Of a DNA stretch of 55,888 nt, positions 19,813-29,210 are shown piece after piece. Origin of the DNA: Candidatus Sulfotelmatobacter sp. GTDB taxonomy: Bacteria > Eisenbacteria > RBG-16-71-46. The notes under the pieces were generated by a model that saw only the letters and a program-made list of their open reading frames with translations, was not told the origin of the DNA and made no database searches. Location of the stretch: positions 1 to 55,888 of the forward strand of contig DATKAB010000021.1 of the NCBI GenBank assembly GCA_035498555.1, written 5' to 3'. Every line of letters begins with the position of its first letter. Within the stretch, counting starts at the first letter, position 1. A program made the translations under genes and the position numbers.

Positions 19813-20532
19813 TCACGACGTGAGGCGGAAGCCGTTCACGGTCACCCCGAACCGGGAGCCGAGATACGTCGCCGCCTTGCGGGAAGCCTGCATCCGGGTC
19901 ATGAAAATCTCGAAGTACTCCATCACCTGCGAGATCTTGGTGTCGACGGTCAGCTCGAGCGTGATCTGCTTCTGGGCCTCGTCCACGTTGAGAAAGCTCT
20001 TCTCCACCGCGTAGTTCACGCGATCGTGGATGTCGAACTTGATCTGCTCGGGATTGCGCACGCGGGTGCGATGGACGTCGCTCTTGTCGGCCAGGATCAG
20101 CGCTGCCGCCACGCGGCTCACCGGCTCGCCGTCGTTCTCGTGATGATTGCCGATCGCTCCGATCACGGTGCAGATCTCGTCGTCGGGCATCCCCATCTCG
20201 TGCAGGATCTGCATGGCCATGGTCGCGCCGGTCTGCGCGTGCTGATCCCGATTCACCGCGTTGCCAATGTCGTGCAGCCAGCCGGCGATCGCCGCCAGCT
20301 CGGCCTCGCGCTCGGGGTGGCCGAGGCGCTTGAGGACGTTGAAGGCGATGCGCGCCACCAGCCCGACGTGGCGCTCGCCGTGCTCGGTGTAGCCGATCTC
20401 GGCCAGCGCCTGGTCGGCGCCTCGGATGTAGGCCCGGGCGCGGCGGTTCTCCTTGACCGCTTCGAACGTGACGATGTCCCCGGCCTTGTCGGCCGCCTTG
20501 TCAGGGCTGGAGGGGGCGATGTGATTGGTCAC
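19813..20532 (-). CDS. HD-domain phosphohydrolase
   Basis: A 239-residue cytosolic protein. The HD fold is marked by HGERHVGLVARIAF, AGWLHDIGNAVNRDQH (metal-binding HD pair), IGAIGNHHEND and ALILADKSDVHRTRVR. Such proteins hydrolyse phosphomonoesters or phosphodiesters of nucleotides; the substrate is not predictable. The C-terminal about 75 residues form a beta-rich domain (ITLELTVDTKISQVMEYF). GTG 20532 is the only standard start before the domain; no strong Shine-Dalgarno is seen. It heads a three-gene group with the TPR and KARI-like genes. Confidence 0.85.
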   Translation of the reverse strand: MTNHIAPSSPDKAADKAGDIVTFEAVKENRRARAYIRGADQALAEIGYTEHGERHVGLVARIAFNVLKRLGHPEREAELAAIAGWLHDIGNAVNRDQHAQTGATMAMQILHEMGMPDDEICTVIGAIGNHHENDGEPVSRVAAALILADKSDVHRTRVRNPEQIKFDIHDRVNYAVEKSFLNVDEAQKQITLELTVDTKISQVMEYFEIFMTRMQASRKAATYLGSRFGVTVNGFRLTS

Positions 20533-20690
20533 AGGATTCTCATGGCGAGCGGGAATCGTGCCGTCGGCCGGTGCATGGAACCGGCGCGGGGAGCGGCCGC
20601 AATCTAGGCACGCCCTTCGAGATGCGTCAAGAGCGGGGGCCGATGTTCCGGGGTTGTGGAGAGACCGGCTTCCGAGCCGTGGCGGGGCCG

Positions 20691-22691
20691 CTACAGCACG
20701 TCCACCGGGTCCACATCCGCCACGACGCGCACGCTGGCCGCGTGTTCGTGCCCTTCCGCCAGCTCGAGGCCGCGCGCGGCGATCTGGTGGAGCTTCGCGG
20801 CGTTTTCGGCCTTGAGCAGCAGGTGCCAGCGATGCTGCCCGCGCAGCCGCGCCAGCGCCTGCGGCGCCGGACCCAGCATCTCCACACCGGCCTCGGCGGC
20901 CTCCGACGCGAGGGCTTCCTCGACACCGGTCGCCAGCGCCTCGATCCGCGCCTCGTCCTTGCCCGAGAAGAGGATCGTTGCCAGCCGCTTGAAGGGTGGA
21001 TATCCGGCCTCGCGACGCTCGTTCAGTTCGCGTTCGAGAAACGCCGCGTCGTCGTGGCGCACTGCCGCCTCGATGGCGGGATGGTCGGGCGTGCAGGTCT
21101 GCACGAACACTTCGCCGCGAGCCGGTCCTCGCCCCGAGCGCCCCGCCACCTGCACCAGCAACTGGAAGGTGCGCTCGGCGGCGCGGAAGTCGGGCAGATG
21201 GAGCGCCACGTCGGCGTCCAGCACGCCGACCAGCGTCACGCGTGGAAAGTCGAGCCCCTTCGCCACCATCTGCGTGCCGAGCAGGACGTCGGCCTCGCCG
21301 TTCGCGAACGCCCGGAGGATTTCGGCGGGGCGGCCGCGCTCGCGCGCCACGTCGGTGTCGAGGCGCAACACGCGCGCCTTCGGGAACACCTCGGCCAGCT
21401 CGCGCTCGACGCGCTGCGTGCCGGCGCCGGAGAGTCGCAGCAGCCGGGCGCCGCATTGCGGACAGGCGCCGCGTGCCGGTTCGCGATGGTCGCAGTAATG
21501 GCAGCGCCATTCGCTCGGCCTCAGGTGGAGGATCAGGGCGATATCGCAGTGCGGGCAGCGCGGCACCCAGCCGCAGGCGCGGCACTGGGTGTGATGCGAG
21601 TGGCCGCGGCGATTGAGGAACAGCACCGACGGCTCACCCTTCTCGAGCCGCTCCGCCAGGCTCTGGCGCAGCGGCCGGGAAAGCAGCGCGTCGGTCACGC
21701 CCTCGCCGCGCAGATCCACGACGCGCACTTCGGGCAGCGGCCGCCGATCCACGCGCTCGGGGAGCCGCAGCCGCGTGTACTTGCCGCGCGCCGCGTTGGC
21801 GAGCGACTCGAGACTCGGGGTCGCCGAGCCCAGCACCACCGGGATTCCCAACAGTTGCGCGCGCCGCACCGCGACATCGCGGCCGTGGTAACGGAGTTGC
21901 TCGCTCTGCTTGTAGGCCGCGTCCTGCTCCTCGTCGACCACCATCAATTTCAGCCCCGGCAAGGGCGCGAACACCGCCGAGCGTGCGCCCACCACCACGT
22001 CGAGCGCGCCGCGGCGCGCCAGCTCCCAGTTGCGCCGGCGCTCGCCGACGCCGAGGTAGCTGTGGAGCACGCCCACGCGGCCGCCGAAGCGGCGTTCGAA
22101 CTCGCGCACCACCTGCGAGCCGAGCGCCACCTCCGGTACCAGCACCAGCGCCTGACCGCCGAGCTCGCGGGCGGCGCGCGCCGCGCGCATGTAGACTTCG
22201 GTCTTGCCGCTGGCGGTGACGCCGTGGAGAAGGAACGCCTTGAAGCCGCCGGTCGAGATCGCGCTCTCGAGGGCCTCCACCGCGCTGCGTTGCGCCGGGG
22301 TGAGCGTGAGGCGCTGGGGCAGCGGCAGGCGCATCACCGGGTCCTCGCGCGCTTCCTTGCGCGCGCGCGAGCGTGCGAAGCCCTCGAGTCCGCCAGGAAG
22401 CGTCGCCGCCAGCACTTCGCCGATCGGCGCCAGGTAGTAGTCGGCGACCCAGCGGGCCAGAGCCATCAGGTGCGGCGTGAGTCGAGGGGCCGGCGTGACC
22501 GCGGCGATGTCGCGCACCTCGGCCACATCGGTGTGGCCGCTCAGCTCGAGGACGTGGCCGCGACGCGTGCGGCCCCGGAACGGCACTTCGACCTGGACCC
22601 CCGGCTGAACCGTGGAGCCGAGCGAATCGGGAACGCGATAGACGAACGTGCGCCGCAAGGGGAGCGGGAGCGCAACCTGCGCGAATGACAT
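20691..22691 (-). CDS. priA: Primosomal helicase PriA
   Basis: A 666-residue replication-restart helicase. The N-terminal DNA-binding domain (FAQVALPLPLRRTFVYRVP…) is followed by helicase motif I GVTASGKTE, motif Ia, motif II VVDEEQD, LGSATPSLES (III) and a zinc module with eight cysteines (CRACGW, CPHCD, CHYCDH, CPQCG). GTQMVAKGLDFPRVTLVGVLDAD and QVAGRSGRG complete motifs V-VI. Motif II normally reads DEEH in PriA; here it is DEEQ. ATG 22691 gives the family start; no clear Shine-Dalgarno is present. It is followed by 158 bases before the HD hydrolase. Confidence 0.95.
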   Translation of the reverse strand: MSFAQVALPLPLRRTFVYRVPDSLGSTVQPGVQVEVPFRGRTRRGHVLELSGHTDVAEVRDIAAVTPAPRLTPHLMALARWVADYYLAPIGEVLAATLPGGLEGFARSRARKEAREDPVMRLPLPQRLTLTPAQRSAVEALESAISTGGFKAFLLHGVTASGKTEVYMRAARAARELGGQALVLVPEVALGSQVVREFERRFGGRVGVLHSYLGVGERRRNWELARRGALDVVVGARSAVFAPLPGLKLMVVDEEQDAAYKQSEQLRYHGRDVAVRRAQLLGIPVVLGSATPSLESLANAARGKYTRLRLPERVDRRPLPEVRVVDLRGEGVTDALLSRPLRQSLAERLEKGEPSVLFLNRRGHSHHTQCRACGWVPRCPHCDIALILHLRPSEWRCHYCDHREPARGACPQCGARLLRLSGAGTQRVERELAEVFPKARVLRLDTDVARERGRPAEILRAFANGEADVLLGTQMVAKGLDFPRVTLVGVLDADVALHLPDFRAAERTFQLLVQVAGRSGRGPARGEVFVQTCTPDHPAIEAAVRHDDAAFLERELNERREAGYPPFKRLATILFSGKDEARIEALATGVEEALASEAAEAGVEMLGPAPQALARLRGQHRWHLLLKAENAAKLHQIAARGLELAEGHEHAASVRVVADVDPVDVL

Positions 22692-22827: not shown

Positions 22828-22864
22828 GGCCTCCGGCGATGAGGAACGACGTCGGCCGGAGGCC
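22828..22864 (-). terminator. GC-rich hairpin at the end of the signalling operon
   Basis: A perfect 10-base inverted repeat (GGCCTCCGGC / GCCGGAGGCC) with a 17-base loop begins in the stop codon of the response regulator. No T-tract follows, so it may be an RNA 3' end barrier or Rho-linked rather than a classical terminator. Confidence 0.5.
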
Positions 22865-23259
22865 TAGGCCTGCATGCGCTGGCTGCTGGTCTGCCCGAGG
22901 ATGGCGTTGATCCGTTCGACCAGCTTGCGCGGACTGAACGGCTTGGTGATGTAGTCGTCCGCACCGACCTCGAAGCCGATCTTCTGGTCGACGTTGCGCC
23001 CCTTGGCGGAGAGCAGGATGACCGGGATGGCTCGCGTGGACTCGTCGGACTTGAGCATCTTGCAGGTTTCGTAGCCGTCGAGCTTCGGCATCATGATGTC
23101 GAGCACGATGAGGTCCGGGTGCTCGGCGTGCGCCTTCTCGAGCGCCTGCTCGCCGTCGAGCGCGGTGAGGACCTCGTATCCCTCCATCCCCAAGCTGAAA
23201 TCCAGGATGTGAACGATGTAGATCTCGTCGTCCACCACCAGGATTTTGCCCTTGGCCAT
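22864..23259 (-). CDS. CheY-like single-domain response regulator
   Basis: A 131-residue receiver domain with no output domain: ILVVDDE acidic pocket, phospho-acceptor Asp in LIVLDIMMPKLDGYE (about residue 53), LLSAKG and the conserved Lys in DDYITKPFSP. ATG 23259 has GGAGGT 8 bases upstream. It follows a histidine kinase stop by 5 bases and is the last gene of the operon, so it is the likely phosphorylation target of one or both upstream kinases. Stand-alone receivers act by protein contacts or as phosphate sinks. Confidence 0.93.
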   Translation of the reverse strand: MAKGKILVVDDEIYIVHILDFSLGMEGYEVLTALDGEQALEKAHAEHPDLIVLDIMMPKLDGYETCKMLKSDESTRAIPVILLSAKGRNVDQKIGFEVGADDYITKPFSPRKLVERINAILGQTSSQRMQA

Positions 23260-23264
23260 GCGAC

Positions 23265-25910
23265 TCACCTCCGTTCCCTGGACTTGAGTTGTGGCGTCTC
23301 GCTCACGGGCGCGCGCGTGAAGTGCTCCACGTCGCGCCACGCGTTCTCGAACACGCTCACCAGCTCCGGGTCGAACCGCCGCCCGGACAGCTTCTTCAGC
23401 TCCTCCATGGCTTCCTGTCGCGTCAGGGCGGGTCGGCCCCAACGCCCCTGCGTGAGACTCTCGAAGGCTTCCACCACCGCGAGAATGCGGCCGCCCATCG
23501 GGATCTCTTCGCCCGAGAGGCCCTGCGGGTAGCCGCTGCCGTCCCACCATTCGTTCTGCGAGACCAGCACGTCGCGCACCACGCCGGCGGCGTCGATCGG
23601 CCGCAGCAGCTCCTGGCTCAGCTCGTTGCGCGGCGCTTCACCCCCCGGCGCCGGCAGGTCCACGTCGCGCATCGAGGCGGCGTGCGCGATCACGCCGACG
23701 TCGGACTCGGGCAGCTCGAGCGCACGCGCGAGGGCGGTCGCCAGGCGAACCCGCCCGGTGACGCCGCGCGGCGAGCGGTCGGCGCCCTTGAGGATCGCCC
23801 GCACCGCGCGATCGGCGTCGTCGAGATCGGACCGCCGTGCGTCCATCGCGCGCGCCTGCTCCCAGGCGGCCGCAACGCGCTCGGCGAGCTGGAGCAGCAG
23901 CTGGCAGTCCTCGGCGTCGAATGGTTCTTCGCTCACCGGATCGGTGACGTTGAGCACGCCGAGAAGTCCACTCTCGCTCTCGATCGGCACCGAGAGGAAG
24001 GTGCCGGTGCGGTAGTGCTTGCGGCCCGAGCCGTGAACCGGATGGGGATCGGCCGAGCCCGTCACGCACACCGGGCGGCGCGATTCGGCGACCCAGCCGG
24101 CGACTCCCGAACCGATGCGGATCGAGGCCTCGCGCATGACGGTCTCGTCCACGCCCAGCGCCGCCTGGATCACCAGGTCGCCGTCCGGCCCGGGCGCGAG
24201 CAGGGACACCACGCGAGCGTTCATGACCTCCGCCACCATCTCGATCGCCAGCCTCAAGACATCTTCGGGTGCGGCGTGCGCTTTGGGGGTCGGGCGCACC
24301 GAAACCCGCGGCCCCGTACGGCGCGGCAGCACCACCGTGAACGTCGAACCCTTCTCCGGCTGGCTCTCGGCGAAGATTCGTCCGCCGTGCCACTCGACGA
24401 TCGATTTGCAGATCGCGAGCCCCAGGCCGGTCCCGCCATAGCGGCGCACCAGCGAGGAGTCCACCTGGAAGAAGCGTTCAAAGATCTTTTCCAGCATCGG
24501 TTCGGGAATGCCGATGCCGGTGTCCCGCACCACCATGGTCACGTCGCGGTCGTCCCCGGTCAGTGAAAGCGTGACCGAGCCGCCGGGCGGCGTGAATTTG
24601 ACCGCGTTGCTCCCCAGATGCAGCGCAAGTTGGCGGAGCTGATCGCGATCCCCGTCCGCACGGGTATCGGCCGCCCCGATCTCCACCTTGAGAGCGATGC
24701 GGGCGGCCTGGGCCACCGGCTGCAACAGTCGGGCGGTTTCCTCGAAGACTTCCGCCAGGTCCACCGACTGGCGGGCCATCTTCATGTTGCCGGAATCGAA
24801 GCGGTTGAGGTCGAGCAGCGACTCGATCAGCCGGGTGAGGCGCTCGGCCTCCTCGCTGATGATCCCCATGAACCGCGCGAGCTGCTCCTGGCTCATCTCG
24901 GCGGGCTGAGCGCCGAGCACCGTGTCGACGTAGGCGCGGATCGCGGTGAGCGGGGTGCGCAGCTCGTGCGACACCGTCGAGACGAAGTTGCTGCGCAGGG
25001 CGTTCATCTCCTGCATGCGCTGGCCGGCCGACTCCAGCTCGCGGGTGTGCCTCTCGAGCTGCTGGTAGAGCCGCGCGTTCTCGATCGCGACCACGGCATG
25101 GTTGCCGAAGATCTCGACCAGCTCGATGGTCTCCTTGGACGGCACCAGGCGATCCTCGGGATCGTCCACCGAGAAATAGGCGACCGGCTGGCCGTCGCGG
25201 CCGTGGAGCGGCACCAGAAGCACGTCGTCCTCGTGCCACTCCCAGTCCTCGCGCGGCCCCAGATCCGGCCGATAGCCCTCGGGCAGCTCGCGATTGAACT
25301 CGTGCGAGTGGCTGATGAAGTACGAGCGGCTGATGCGGAACTCCTCGCGCAGCCACGACTGGAACTCGGCGACGCTGATGTCCTCACGCGACAGCCGGAC
25401 GCGCGTCTCCTCGTCAATCCCGGCGAAGGCGCGCGCCACCATGCGGTCGGTGCCGGGCTCGAGGATGCGGATCAGCACCACCTGGAAGCGCAGGGTCTCG
25501 CGCAGGGTCTCGGCGAGCCGCGAGAGCAACGCGTCGAGGTCGAGCTCCGAGTTGATGCGGTAAATGTTCTCGAGGATCAGGTGCAGTTTGGTCGCGCGCT
25601 TGCGATTCTCCTCGACCTGATTGAAGTAGAGCTTGGAGAGACGCTGGCGGGTGCGCGACAGCTCCTCCACCTGCTTGAGCAGCGCGGCCGGATCGAGCGA
25701 CTGCGGCGGGCCGGGATCGGGGGCGGCGAGGATCGCGGCCGCTTCGTCCGCCGGACTGGGGGGATTCGCGACCCCCGACTCGCCGTTGCGTTCGGCCGCT
25801 TCCTTTCGCAGCTTCTGGATCTCGGCGCGCGCCACGTCGAGGTCGGAGCGGAGCCGCAGCTCCACCACCGAAGGCGGCATGCCGGCCTTGGGGCTGGCTT
25901 TCTTCTTCAC
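23265..25910 (-). CDS. Sensor histidine kinase with two GAF domains and a degenerate HD-GYP-like C-terminus
   Basis: An 881-residue cytosolic multidomain protein without membrane segments. A coiled-coil N-terminus (1-110) leads to a GAF domain (about 110-285), HisKA with STVSHELRTP (His315), HATPase with LHLGSNAVKF (N box), DTGIGI and GGTGLGLAI (about 420-530), a second GAF (about 545-690) and an HD-GYP-like domain (about 700-850). In the last domain the expected HDIG is RDVD (748-751) and HHExxDGxGYP is QNEWWDGSGYP (785-795), so the metal-binding histidines are gone while the fold signature DG-GYP…GGRILAVVEAFE stays. It is probably a regulatory pseudo-phosphodiesterase. Start GTG 25910; ATG 25880 is an alternative. 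A paralogue with intact HD-GYP lies upstream. Confidence 0.88.
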   Translation of the reverse strand: MKKKASPKAGMPPSVVELRLRSDLDVARAEIQKLRKEAAERNGESGVANPPSPADEAAAILAAPDPGPPQSLDPAALLKQVEELSRTRQRLSKLYFNQVEENRKRATKLHLILENIYRINSELDLDALLSRLAETLRETLRFQVVLIRILEPGTDRMVARAFAGIDEETRVRLSREDISVAEFQSWLREEFRISRSYFISHSHEFNRELPEGYRPDLGPREDWEWHEDDVLLVPLHGRDGQPVAYFSVDDPEDRLVPSKETIELVEIFGNHAVVAIENARLYQQLERHTRELESAGQRMQEMNALRSNFVSTVSHELRTPLTAIRAYVDTVLGAQPAEMSQEQLARFMGIISEEAERLTRLIESLLDLNRFDSGNMKMARQSVDLAEVFEETARLLQPVAQAARIALKVEIGAADTRADGDRDQLRQLALHLGSNAVKFTPPGGSVTLSLTGDDRDVTMVVRDTGIGIPEPMLEKIFERFFQVDSSLVRRYGGTGLGLAICKSIVEWHGGRIFAESQPEKGSTFTVVLPRRTGPRVSVRPTPKAHAAPEDVLRLAIEMVAEVMNARVVSLLAPGPDGDLVIQAALGVDETVMREASIRIGSGVAGWVAESRRPVCVTGSADPHPVHGSGRKHYRTGTFLSVPIESESGLLGVLNVTDPVSEEPFDAEDCQLLLQLAERVAAAWEQARAMDARRSDLDDADRAVRAILKGADRSPRGVTGRVRLATALARALELPESDVGVIAHAASMRDVDLPAPGGEAPRNELSQELLRPIDAAGVVRDVLVSQNEWWDGSGYPQGLSGEEIPMGGRILAVVEAFESLTQGRWGRPALTRQEAMEELKKLSGRRFDPELVSVFENAWRDVEHFTRAPVSETPQLKSRERR

Positions 25911-25944
25911 GCCCCGCCCCCTTCCCCGGGAGTGGCCTTCGTGT

Positions 25945-28254
25945 TCACGATGCGCCTCCCTCGCGCTCCAGCACGCGCACGAAGGCCGTCACCACGTCGG
26001 GATCGAATTGCGCGCCGGACGACCGCCGGAGCTCGGCGACCGCCGCTTCGCGCGGCACCGGCGCGCGGAACGGCCGGCCGCGCGTCATGCTCTCCCACGC
26101 GTCCACCACCGCCAGCACCCGTCCACCCAGCGGAATCTCGAGGCCGCGCAAGCCGCGAGGATAGCCGTGGCCGTCCCAGCGCTCGTGATGCGTCAGGATC
26201 ACGTCGCGCACCGCGAGCTGGTACTCCAGCGGCCTCATGATCTCGACGCTGACCTCGGGATGCTTCTGCACCTCGGATCGTCCCCGATCGTCGAGCGGCT
26301 CGCCGTGAGCGACTTCGTCGCGCACCGCCGCCATGCCGATGTCGTGGATGCTGGCGACGTACCCGATCAGATCCACCTCGGTCTCGGGGAGCTGGAGCTC
26401 GCGCGCCAGCGCCCGGGCGAGATGCACCTGCTGGCGGCCGCCGAGCAGGCTCTCGCGCTTGAGGCGCGTGATGCTGCGCACCGCCTGCAGCGCCTCGTCC
26501 ACCAGACGCGGGCTGTCGGGATGTTGGCTGGCGCGCTCGACCGCGCTGCCGACGCGCTCCACCAGCGCGGTGAGCACCGCCAGATCGTCGTCATCGAACG
26601 CCTCGCCCGAGCGCTTGTTGTTGACGTTCAGGACGCCGATCACCTCGCGCTCGACGTGGAGCGGCACGCACAGCAGCGACTTGGTCTTGTACTGCGGATG
26701 GTTGAGCCGGCGGAATCGGCGGTCGGTCTCGATGTTGTTCACCAGCAACGGGCGGCCCCAGGCCGCCACCGAGCCGGCGACGCCCGAGCGCAGCGTGGTG
26801 CGACGCGCGCCGAGCTGCTGTCCGTCGAGGCCGCGCTGGGCCACGATCGACAGATCGCCGCGCTCGGGATCCACCAGCATCATCGACACGATCTCGGCAT
26901 TCATCGCCGCCGCCACCATCTCGACGGTGTGATCGAACAGCGTGCAGAGGTCGGGACGCGCCATCACCCCGCGGGCGATGCGGCGGGCGCGCGGCGTCGC
27001 CAGCTGGCGCATGGGCAGCTGGAACACGAAGCGCGTGCCGCTCTTCTCCGGGATCTCGACCCGGATGCCGCCGCCATGGAGCTCGACGATGCCGCGAGCG
27101 ATCGCCAGGCCCAGCCCGGTGCCCTCGCTCTCCTGCTCGCCGGCCTGCCGCGAGCGGAAGAAGCGCTCGAAGACGTGGGGCAGGTCCTCGGCCGGGATGC
27201 CGGGACCCTGGTCCTCCACCGACACCATGATCTCTTCCCCGTTCGGCACCGCGGTGATGCGCACTTCGCCGCCGATGGGCGAGAACTTGGCGGCGTTGCC
27301 GAGGAGATTGATCAGCAGCCGCCGCAGCAGATCGGCGTCGGCCTCGAGCTTGAGCCCGGGATCGATCTGGAACGCGGTCTTGATGCGGCGCGCGTGCAGC
27401 ACCGGCTGCAGTCCTTCGAGGGTCTCGCGCACCAGGGTCTCGGGCTCGAGGCGCGAGAGCCGGAGCGGGCGCTGGCCGGATTCGAGACGCGAGAGGTCCA
27501 GGATGTCGGTGACCAGCCGCGACAGGCGATCGCACTCGACGTTGATGATGCTGAGGAAGCGCTCGCGCGGCGCCTGCGCGTTCTGCAGGCTTTCGAGCAG
27601 CGCCTCGGCGTAAGCCTTGATCGCGGTCAGCGGACTGCGAATCTCGTGCGCCACGACCGACATGAGGCTCGAAGCGGTCTCTTCGCCCTCGGCCACCCGC
27701 CGCTCGAGGCGGGCGCTCTGCCGGCGCGCGTCCTCGAACAGCCGCCGCAGCTCGGCGCGCTCGAGCGTCAGCGCCACTCCGTCGCCGAGCGTCTGCAGCA
27801 GCAGCCGGTCGGTCTGCGTGAACGGATGCGGGCTCGAGAACGCCACCAGCAGCACGCCACAGACCGTGCCGCCCGAAATCAGCGGCACCGTCGCGAGCGC
27901 CGCGGGAGGATCAGTCCACAGCGACGCTTCGCGCGGAGCCTCCGGCTGCTCGATGCCGTCGTCGTAAGCGGCCATCTCCTGTTGCAGCGTCCACTCGACC
28001 GGTCCTTCGGCGTCGGCGAGATAGGCGCTCTCGGTGCCGGCAGGATCCATGCAGATCAGGGTCCCGCTGCGCGGATCCACCCGCAGCATCCGCCAGTCGG
28101 ACGCGCCGGCGCCCTGCATGGCGCAGGCGCCGGCGATCGAGCAGGCGGTGCCGAGATCGCCGGCGCTGCGCAGCGCCAGCATCGCCTGCGCGAGCGAGGC
28201 CAGCGCGGATTCCGGAGTCGCCTCGGGCCGGATGTCGGGAAGGATCGTGCTCAT
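25945..28254 (-). CDS. Sensor histidine kinase with C-terminal GAF and intact HD-GYP phosphodiesterase domain
   Basis: A 769-residue cytosolic protein. An N-terminal GAF-like region (about 15-165) precedes a coiled coil, HisKA with SVVAHEIRSPLT (His203), HATPase with INLLGNAAKF, DQGPGIP and EGTGLGLAI (about 305-415), a second GAF (about 430-575) and HD-GYP (about 585-765). The HD-GYP is complete: IHDIG (636-640), KHP His665, HHERWDGHGYP (689-699) and LGGRVLAVVDAWESM. HD-GYP domains cleave cyclic di-GMP (some cGAMP). It would thus combine kinase signalling with second-messenger breakdown in one chain. ATG 28254 overlaps the upstream stop as ATGA. It shares architecture with the next gene, a likely tandem duplication. 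Confidence 0.9.
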   Translation of the reverse strand: MSTILPDIRPEATPESALASLAQAMLALRSAGDLGTACSIAGACAMQGAGASDWRMLRVDPRSGTLICMDPAGTESAYLADAEGPVEWTLQQEMAAYDDGIEQPEAPREASLWTDPPAALATVPLISGGTVCGVLLVAFSSPHPFTQTDRLLLQTLGDGVALTLERAELRRLFEDARRQSARLERRVAEGEETASSLMSVVAHEIRSPLTAIKAYAEALLESLQNAQAPRERFLSIINVECDRLSRLVTDILDLSRLESGQRPLRLSRLEPETLVRETLEGLQPVLHARRIKTAFQIDPGLKLEADADLLRRLLINLLGNAAKFSPIGGEVRITAVPNGEEIMVSVEDQGPGIPAEDLPHVFERFFRSRQAGEQESEGTGLGLAIARGIVELHGGGIRVEIPEKSGTRFVFQLPMRQLATPRARRIARGVMARPDLCTLFDHTVEMVAAAMNAEIVSMMLVDPERGDLSIVAQRGLDGQQLGARRTTLRSGVAGSVAAWGRPLLVNNIETDRRFRRLNHPQYKTKSLLCVPLHVEREVIGVLNVNNKRSGEAFDDDDLAVLTALVERVGSAVERASQHPDSPRLVDEALQAVRSITRLKRESLLGGRQQVHLARALARELQLPETEVDLIGYVASIHDIGMAAVRDEVAHGEPLDDRGRSEVQKHPEVSVEIMRPLEYQLAVRDVILTHHERWDGHGYPRGLRGLEIPLGGRVLAVVDAWESMTRGRPFRAPVPREAAVAELRRSSGAQFDPDVVTAFVRVLEREGGAS

Positions 28255-29210
28255 GCCGCGGCATTCCGATCGGCCGACTCGCCGCCCTGGCGGCGCTCGT
28301 TCACCAGCACGCTGCCCGGCATGCTCTTGCCGTGCGCCTTCAACTCCTGCGAGATGTCGGTGAGCTGGGCGAGGTGAGTGACCGGCATGCGGTCGGTGCT
28401 GACCAGCGCGATGGTGAGGCTCATCAGCGGAAAGCGCTCGAGCACGTGCCGCCGGTTGTGCACCTCGACGTGACCGCGATCGAGATCCTCGGCGTCGTAG
28501 AACGCCTTCGCCGCGGCGTCGAACTGGGCCAGGATGTCGCGGCCGAGCGCTTCCGCCACGGGAGGCGTGCTGACCACGATGAAATCGTCGCCGCCGATGT
28601 GCCCGACGAAATTGCTCTGGCCATGGCGCTGCACGGTTTCGACGATGATCCGCGCCAGCGCCTGGATGGCCTGGTCGCCGCGCGCGTAGCCGTAGCGGTC
28701 GTTGAAGGCCTTGAAGAAGTCGATGTCGATCTGCAGGAACGCGAACGGCTCCCCGCTCGCCAGTCGCCGCTCCACCTCTTCGTTGATCGAGAGATTGCCG
28801 GGCAGACCCGTGAGCGGACTCGCCGACCGCTGCTGCCGGCTCCACTCGAGCACGTTGCGGATGCGCAGCACCAGCTCCTTCTGCTGCCAGGGCTTGGTGA
28901 CGTAGTCGTTGGCGCCGCCCTGCAGCCCGTGCACCTTGTCGTCGGCCTCGGCCTTGGCGGTGAGCATGACGATCGGGATGTGTCGCGTGGCATAGGCCGC
29001 GCGCAGGCGATGCGTCACCTCGAAGCCGTCGAGGTGGGGCATCATCACGTCGCAGAGCAGGACGTCGGGAAGCTGCTCGAGCGCGAGGTCGACGGCGCGC
29101 TGACCGTCCTCGGCCACCAGCACCTCGAAGCCCGCCGCTTCGAGCTGGAAGCGCAGGACCTCACGCAGATGCGGTTCGTCTTCTGCGATCAGAACACGTG
29201 GTTTGTTCAC
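28251..29210 (-). CDS. Response regulator with GGDEF-like output domain
   Basis: A 319-residue protein: receiver domain (1-120; acidic pocket AEDE, Asp54 in LLCDVMMPHLDGFE, Lys106 in DYVTKPW) and a diguanylate-cyclase-like domain (about 130-300). The DIDFFKAFNDRYGYARGDQA segment is typical, but the signature loop is GGDDF (206-210) instead of GGDEF/GGEEF, so cyclase activity is uncertain. Start GTG 29210 matches the receiver N-terminus. It is the first gene of the four-gene operon and overlaps the kinase/HD-GYP gene by 4 bases. A sigma-54-type promoter match sits about 60-80 bases upstream. Confidence 0.85.
   Translation of the reverse strand: MNKPRVLIAEDEPHLREVLRFQLEAAGFEVLVAEDGQRAVDLALEQLPDVLLCDVMMPHLDGFEVTHRLRAAYATRHIPIVMLTAKAEADDKVHGLQGGANDYVTKPWQQKELVLRIRNVLEWSRQQRSASPLTGLPGNLSINEEVERRLASGEPFAFLQIDIDFFKAFNDRYGYARGDQAIQALARIIVETVQRHGQSNFVGHIGGDDFIVVSTPPVAEALGRDILAQFDAAAKAFYDAEDLDRGHVEVHNRRHVLERFPLMSLTIALVSTDRMPVTHLAQLTDISQELKAHGKSMPGSVLVNERRQGGESADRNAAA

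Follow-up and report, generated by a model that had tools for sequence, protein, structure and literature searches.

In this study, we analysed a four-gene signalling locus within the window, that is, the full 55,888-nt stretch of the Candidatus Sulfotelmatobacter sp. genome (G000) to which an earlier reading made from the letters alone (the sequence-only reading) had been applied. Two adjacent proteins of this locus, here called kinase A (upstream) and kinase B (downstream), each join a histidine kinase to an HD-GYP domain, and they lie between a receiver-GGDDF protein and a single-domain CheY-like receiver. We consider it probable, though well short of certain, that this is a phylum-specific signalling locus in which kinase B now works as a kinase/phosphatase only and carries a vestigial HD-GYP domain. 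Comparison with relatives suggests that the state of kinase B looks like repeated lineage-specific wear of a redundant module, not special design. The two kinases and their HD-GYP domains are located as follows.

28254-25945, minus strand: kinase A, GAF-HisKA-HATPase-GAF-HD-GYP (Pfam, motifs, AlphaFold2 (AF2) model, PDB fold match)
25948..26526, minus strand: HD-GYP domain of kinase A (Pfam and alignments)
25910-23265, minus strand: kinase B, GAF-HisKA-HATPase-GAF-degenerate HD-GYP (Pfam, motifs, branch lengths)
23268..23849, minus strand: degenerate HD-GYP domain of kinase B (alignments, motif reading, AF2 model)

Degeneration of the HD-GYP domain of kinase B

The HD-GYP domain of kinase B still belongs to the HD_5 family (PF13487), with a match of 84.2 bits that covers the GYP half only (model positions 83-170 of 170). 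Its motifs read RDVD (HD changed to RD) and QNEWWDGSGYP (HH changed to QN), as the sequence-only reading had reported. Two further losses had not been listed there: the D305 place is occupied by E (VVE instead of VVD), and ~16 residues are deleted in frame from the stretch between HD and HH, the H250 region with them. In the alignment, the D222 equivalent alone is left of the eight metal ligands of PmGH, the GAF-HD-GYP phosphodiesterase of Persephonella marina, while GYP and two downstream Arg are retained. These results agree with the earlier claim that the metal site was lost and the fold signature kept, and they support the view that this domain could not hold the known metal site. The AF2 model of the domain was built from a four-sequence alignment and reached a predicted template modelling score (pTM) of 0.47, with residues 219-259 of the HD half at a predicted local distance difference test (pLDDT) score <50, and it is too uncertain for judging the ligand pocket. 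For the GAF-HD-GYP models of both kinases the best PDB fold match was PmGH (4MCW), the kinase B model itself being poor. A simple frameshift in kinase B was ruled out, the frame being open and no other frame of the stretch restoring HDxG.

Phylogenetic analysis was performed on the kinase and GAF columns, with the HD-GYP domain excluded and other kinases of the genome as the root. Kinase A formed one clade (support 99/97) and so did kinase B (99/96), which supports the proposal, already made from the sequence alone, that they arose by duplication, and points to ancient paralogues from a single event. Since each forms one clade, the duplication is old and the absences described below are mostly losses. 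The HD-GYP domain tree, unlike the kinase tree, groups kinase A of family f5 with kinase B of families f5 and f8; gene conversion between the HD-GYP domains of A and B (f5/f1) was not significant (p-AU 0.105).

Evolutionary rates were estimated on a fixed tree by dividing the terminal branch of the HD-GYP domain by that of the kinase, and the values are point estimates without error bars. The median ratio was 1.1, compared with 3.7 in kinase B of the window genome, 2.6 in that of G002 and 4.8 in kinase A of G007. In kinase B of the window genome the kinase branch was short (0.187) vs 0.688 for the HD-GYP domain, and the excess sat in the HD half (1.0), not in the GYP half (0.55). Raised ratios were also seen in two copies with intact motifs, on short branches (kinase B of G045, 3.3; kinase A of G027, 2.6), and in kinase B of G022 (2.7), which has HE instead of HD.

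Independent losses across the phylum

Our collection covers 47 genomes of this uncultured phylum. A collection-wide scan with kinase B gave one further locus, L031, from the groundwater genome G045, which was deposited as Candidatus Latescibacterota and belongs to the same phylum. The four-gene order, which the sequence-only reading had proposed to seek elsewhere, was found in most genomes of f1 (the family of the window genome) and of f5, in the arrangement TsaD-[receiver-GGDDF-kinase(s)-CheY]-PriA. Three kinase states occur: both A and B; B only (G002, G010, three f8 genomes and G022); and A only (seven genomes of genera g2 and g12). In families lacking both, the receiver-GGDDF gene still adjoins the CheY-like gene, mostly between tsaD and priA.

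Both HD and HHE...GYP are kept in both copies in 13 of the 17 genomes in which both can be read. Degenerate copies vary by lineage. In kinase B, the window genome has RD and QN; G002 has E and RH, with the two Arg replaced by Lys and Thr; and G008 has QG and RH in a gene that is decaying as a whole (kinase branch 0.656, H-box Arg, broken frame). In kinase A, G007 has lost HD and has QH and GLP, and G004 shows the HD to RD change only. Kinase A lies in two frames in G044. No kinase A was found anywhere in the genome of G002, though its kinase B is degenerate, and an intact partner is not required on this evidence. No genome with both copies degenerate was found; such a genome would be expected by chance in well under one case, so that its absence is uninformative.

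The opposite loss was seen in kinase A of g2 and g12, where B is gone: the G1 and G2 boxes are eroded (DDGPPxP, GTRxGL), g12 also has H replaced by T, and the HD-GYP motif is kept, with a stem branch of 0.577 for the kinase vs 0.253 for the HD-GYP domain. Because B loses its HD-GYP domain with the kinase kept and A of g2 and g12 does the reverse, these comparisons indicate that either module can wear away while the other stays, in either copy.

Two loci deserve separate mention. Kinase B of G008 (L053:6936-10353) lies in two frames with the H-box His changed to Arg, so that either the gene is decaying or the assembly is at fault. In G020, a 473-aa frame without a Pfam match (L078:4332-5747) lies between the receiver-GGDDF and CheY-like genes; it is apparently a shrunken kinase B lacking the HisKA His and the HD-GYP domain, its homology resting on position and a reading of the N-terminus. 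In addition, kinase A of g2 and g12 (L055-L061) may represent pseudokinase phosphodiesterases.

Kinase architecture and the HD-GYP domain of kinase A

Pfam found GAF, HisKA, HATPase_c, GAF and HD_5 in both kinases and no Response_reg match in either. The single-chain fusion without a receiver, which the sequence-only reading had set apart from the RpfG type, was thereby borne out, with the addition of an N-terminal GAF domain that its list had lacked; neither protein is an RpfG-type receiver/HD-GYP fusion. Both are class I histidine kinases (HisKA plus HATPase_c) with complete H, N, G1, F and G2 boxes: the H-box is SVVAHEIRSPLTA in A and STVSHELRTPLTA in B, followed by NAAKF and NAVKF, DQGPGIP and DTGIGIP, and GTGLGL in both. 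In a search of 72,556 plasmids, the 5000 best-matching records included no full-length relative of kinase B (80% coverage in one place); kinase and HD-GYP occurred there mostly as separate neighbouring genes. Our literature search found no description of a fused histidine kinase/HD-GYP protein, the main census of HD-GYP architectures lying outside its reach.

The HD-GYP domain of kinase A matches HD_5 with 101.9 bits over model positions 10-170, carries HDIG and HHERWDGHGYP as the sequence-only reading had stated, and has a confident AF2 model (pLDDT 81, pTM 0.82). It nevertheless falls short of the ligand set of a catalytic HD-GYP phosphodiesterase (E185, H189, H221, D222, H250, H276, H277, D305). 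In an alignment with PmGH and a canonical HD-GYP protein of the same genome (L062), the equivalents of H221, D222, H250, H276, H277 and D305 are present, H189 is replaced by Gly, E185 is uncertain and K225 is replaced by Met. These features are shared: in no A or B copy across the phylum is the H189 place securely occupied by His (a single His in kinase B of G022 is doubtful), HDxGK reads HDxGM throughout, and six of the eight ligands are kept in nearly all non-degenerate copies. Given the six ligands, and given that phosphodiesterase activity was first demonstrated for an HD-GYP protein in RpfG, which has no equivalents of E185 and H189 (PMC4159591), hydrolysis of cyclic di-GMP (c-di-GMP) by kinase A is plausible, if uncertain.

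Neighbouring genes

All four genes lie on the minus strand between 29210 and 22864, with tsaD (30635-29466) and priA as flanks, which matches the extent and layout given by the sequence-only reading. The two further members are listed below.

29210-28251, minus strand: receiver-GGDDF protein (Pfam Response_reg and GGDEF; motif table over 29 orthologues)
23259-22864, minus strand: single-domain CheY-like receiver (Pfam Response_reg; conservation across the phylum)

Since the genes of the receiver-GGDDF protein and kinase A overlap (ATGA at 28254) and only 5 bases separate kinase B from the CheY-like gene, the four genes likely share one transcript.

The receiver-GGDDF protein carries TGLPGN...GHIGGDDF, with TGLPGN throughout the orthologue set, and its receiver has the phosphoacceptor Asp, the Thr and the Lys; the RxxD inhibition site is absent from the protein. 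The active site departs from the GG(D/E)EF consensus of diguanylate cyclases, reading GGDDF in 29/29 orthologues. The Ser that takes the place of the GD aspartate in Hypr cyclic GMP-AMP (cGAMP) synthases was found in none of the orthologues, all of which have Asp, so that c-di-GMP rather than cGAMP is the expected product. This protein is probably a diguanylate cyclase making c-di-GMP. It shares GGDDF with GSU1937 of Geobacter, a cyclase active in vivo, and differs from it in keeping the GD aspartate where GSU1937 has the Hypr Ser348.

The CheY-like receiver was present in 26/26 good genomes of the phylum, even without an adjoining kinase. Its identity was 80-95% in the nearer families and 55-95% overall, compared with 38-62% for kinase B, and its target is probably conserved and perhaps essential. 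The same genome holds further GGDEF and HD-GYP genes, so that cyclic dinucleotide signalling is present there regardless of this locus. Downstream of priA, the C-terminal part of the product of window positions 19813-21585 is an HD domain (PF01966, not HD-GYP), and this synteny is kept in f1 and f8.

Discussion

Our proposed explanation is as follows. Kinases A and B would be soluble, GAF-sensing class I histidine kinases flanked by their probable substrates, and would phosphorylate the neighbouring receivers, namely those of the receiver-GGDDF and CheY-like proteins. The receiver-GGDDF protein, when acting as a cyclase, would raise c-di-GMP, and the PmGH-like GAF-HD-GYP module carried by each kinase, where present and intact, would lower it locally; phosphorylation and second messenger could thereby be set together. 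In kinase B of the window genome, relaxed selection would have removed the metal site and the greater part of the nucleotide site; this copy presumably no longer binds nucleotide, and any residual HD-GYP activity of the locus would belong to kinase A. RpfG/RpfC offers a parallel in its kinase/HD-GYP partnership and in the ligands missing from RpfG, but here the HD-GYP domain is fused to the kinase and the receivers are separate proteins.

Several observations weigh against this explanation. First, kinase A lacks residues that the activity of PmGH requires. Second, GGDDF proteins include both active (GSU1937) and inactive (PA3258) examples (PMC8835794). Third, the receivers are linked to the kinases by gene adjacency alone. 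Fourth, the GYP-half branch of kinase B lies within the range of intact copies (0.19-0.63), and WWDG(S/T)GYP is kept in all three degenerate B copies; a fold, surface or structural role of this half may persist.

Among the alternatives, it is conceivable, if rather doubtful, that all HD-GYP modules of the family, that of kinase A included, are non-hydrolytic and that the proteins are nucleotide- or metal-sensing kinases, which is compatible with a vestigial domain in B. The missing His at H189 and the HDxGM motif across the phylum agree with this, because PmGH lost essentially all activity when H189 or K225 was changed to Ala (PMC4159591). PmGH itself has E185, H189 and K225 and no kinase, and shares six metal ligands with A, while almost all the ligands are missing from B. 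On the other side, the six ligands retained in nearly all non-degenerate copies suggest that metal is still bound, and RpfG is a demonstrated phosphodiesterase without two of the eight.

It is unlikely that the degenerate domain of kinase B serves as a non-catalytic c-di-GMP receptor setting the activity of its kinase; a vestige is the reading that we favour, with moderate confidence. The receptor has a precedent in DvhD (9RBZ), whose HD-GYP domain has SQ for HD and MN for HH, lacks metals, and binds c-di-GMP without hydrolysing it (PMC13090378). Sequence comparison placed DvhD among the PDB relatives of B, and both have HD and HH replaced and GYP kept; B retains the GYP Tyr, the R650 equivalent and the next Arg, and the conserved WWDG(S/T)GYP of three independent degenerate B copies points the same way. 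Binding of c-di-GMP to a kinase is known from RavS (PMC6707612), and RavS/RavR of Xanthomonas likewise forms a circuit that links a kinase with c-di-GMP enzymes and receivers, but there the ligand binds the ATPase (CA) domain and no HD-GYP domain is involved. However, DvhD is not a kinase but a dCache-PAS protein of the membrane, and B lacks the majority of its nucleotide contacts. Of its contacts Y523, L577, K582, Y621, M646, R650, Y652 and E668, seven could be placed on B (Y523 was not mapped), and Y621 and R650 alone are clearly kept: the L577/K582 region falls within the 16-residue deletion, Gly stands for Y652 and Leu for M646, and the E668 place is not acidic. Furthermore, G002 has Lys and Thr in place of the two Arg, and the HD-GYP domain of B evolves 3.7 times faster than its kinase.

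A broader proposal, to which we attach a low probability, is that soluble kinases across the phylum use the non-canonical HD-GYP domain, with no H189 and Met for Lys, as a cyclic-dinucleotide or metal sensor and not as an enzyme; the receiver-GGDDF protein would write the signal and the two paralogues would differ in how they read it, B through a site reduced still further.

The sequence-only reading had gone further and regarded the dead copy as a fixed sensor or allosteric partner in a heteromeric kinase set by c-di-GMP. We found no evidence pointing to such a kinase. The adjacent, co-directional paralogues, the mostly conserved pair and the lack of a doubly degenerate genome speak for an obligate partnership, but most readable pairs keep both motifs, the dead copy varies by lineage, the degenerate B of G002 has no A in its genome, seven genomes have A only and five others B only, and the loss of most DvhD contacts speaks against a sensor; we regard this arrangement as very unlikely. 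Last, the same reading had taken intact residues in relatives as a sign of sequencing error; such relatives do exist, but an error in this draft assembly (219 contigs) has a very low probability in view of the open frame, the multiple substitutions with an in-frame deletion, the lack of an alternative frame with HDxG, and comparable losses in other genomes.

The locus encodes an unusual pair of kinase/HD-GYP fusions, and their lineage-specific wear is more nuanced than was first read. A degenerate copy in one genome should not be read as a designed sensor. The locus amounts to a natural experiment on a protein that fuses two functions: the receiver-GGDDF/CheY core is maintained, while the kinase and the HD-GYP domain disappear separately and from either copy, and these separate losses make it testable whether the HD-GYP domain matters for control of the kinase.

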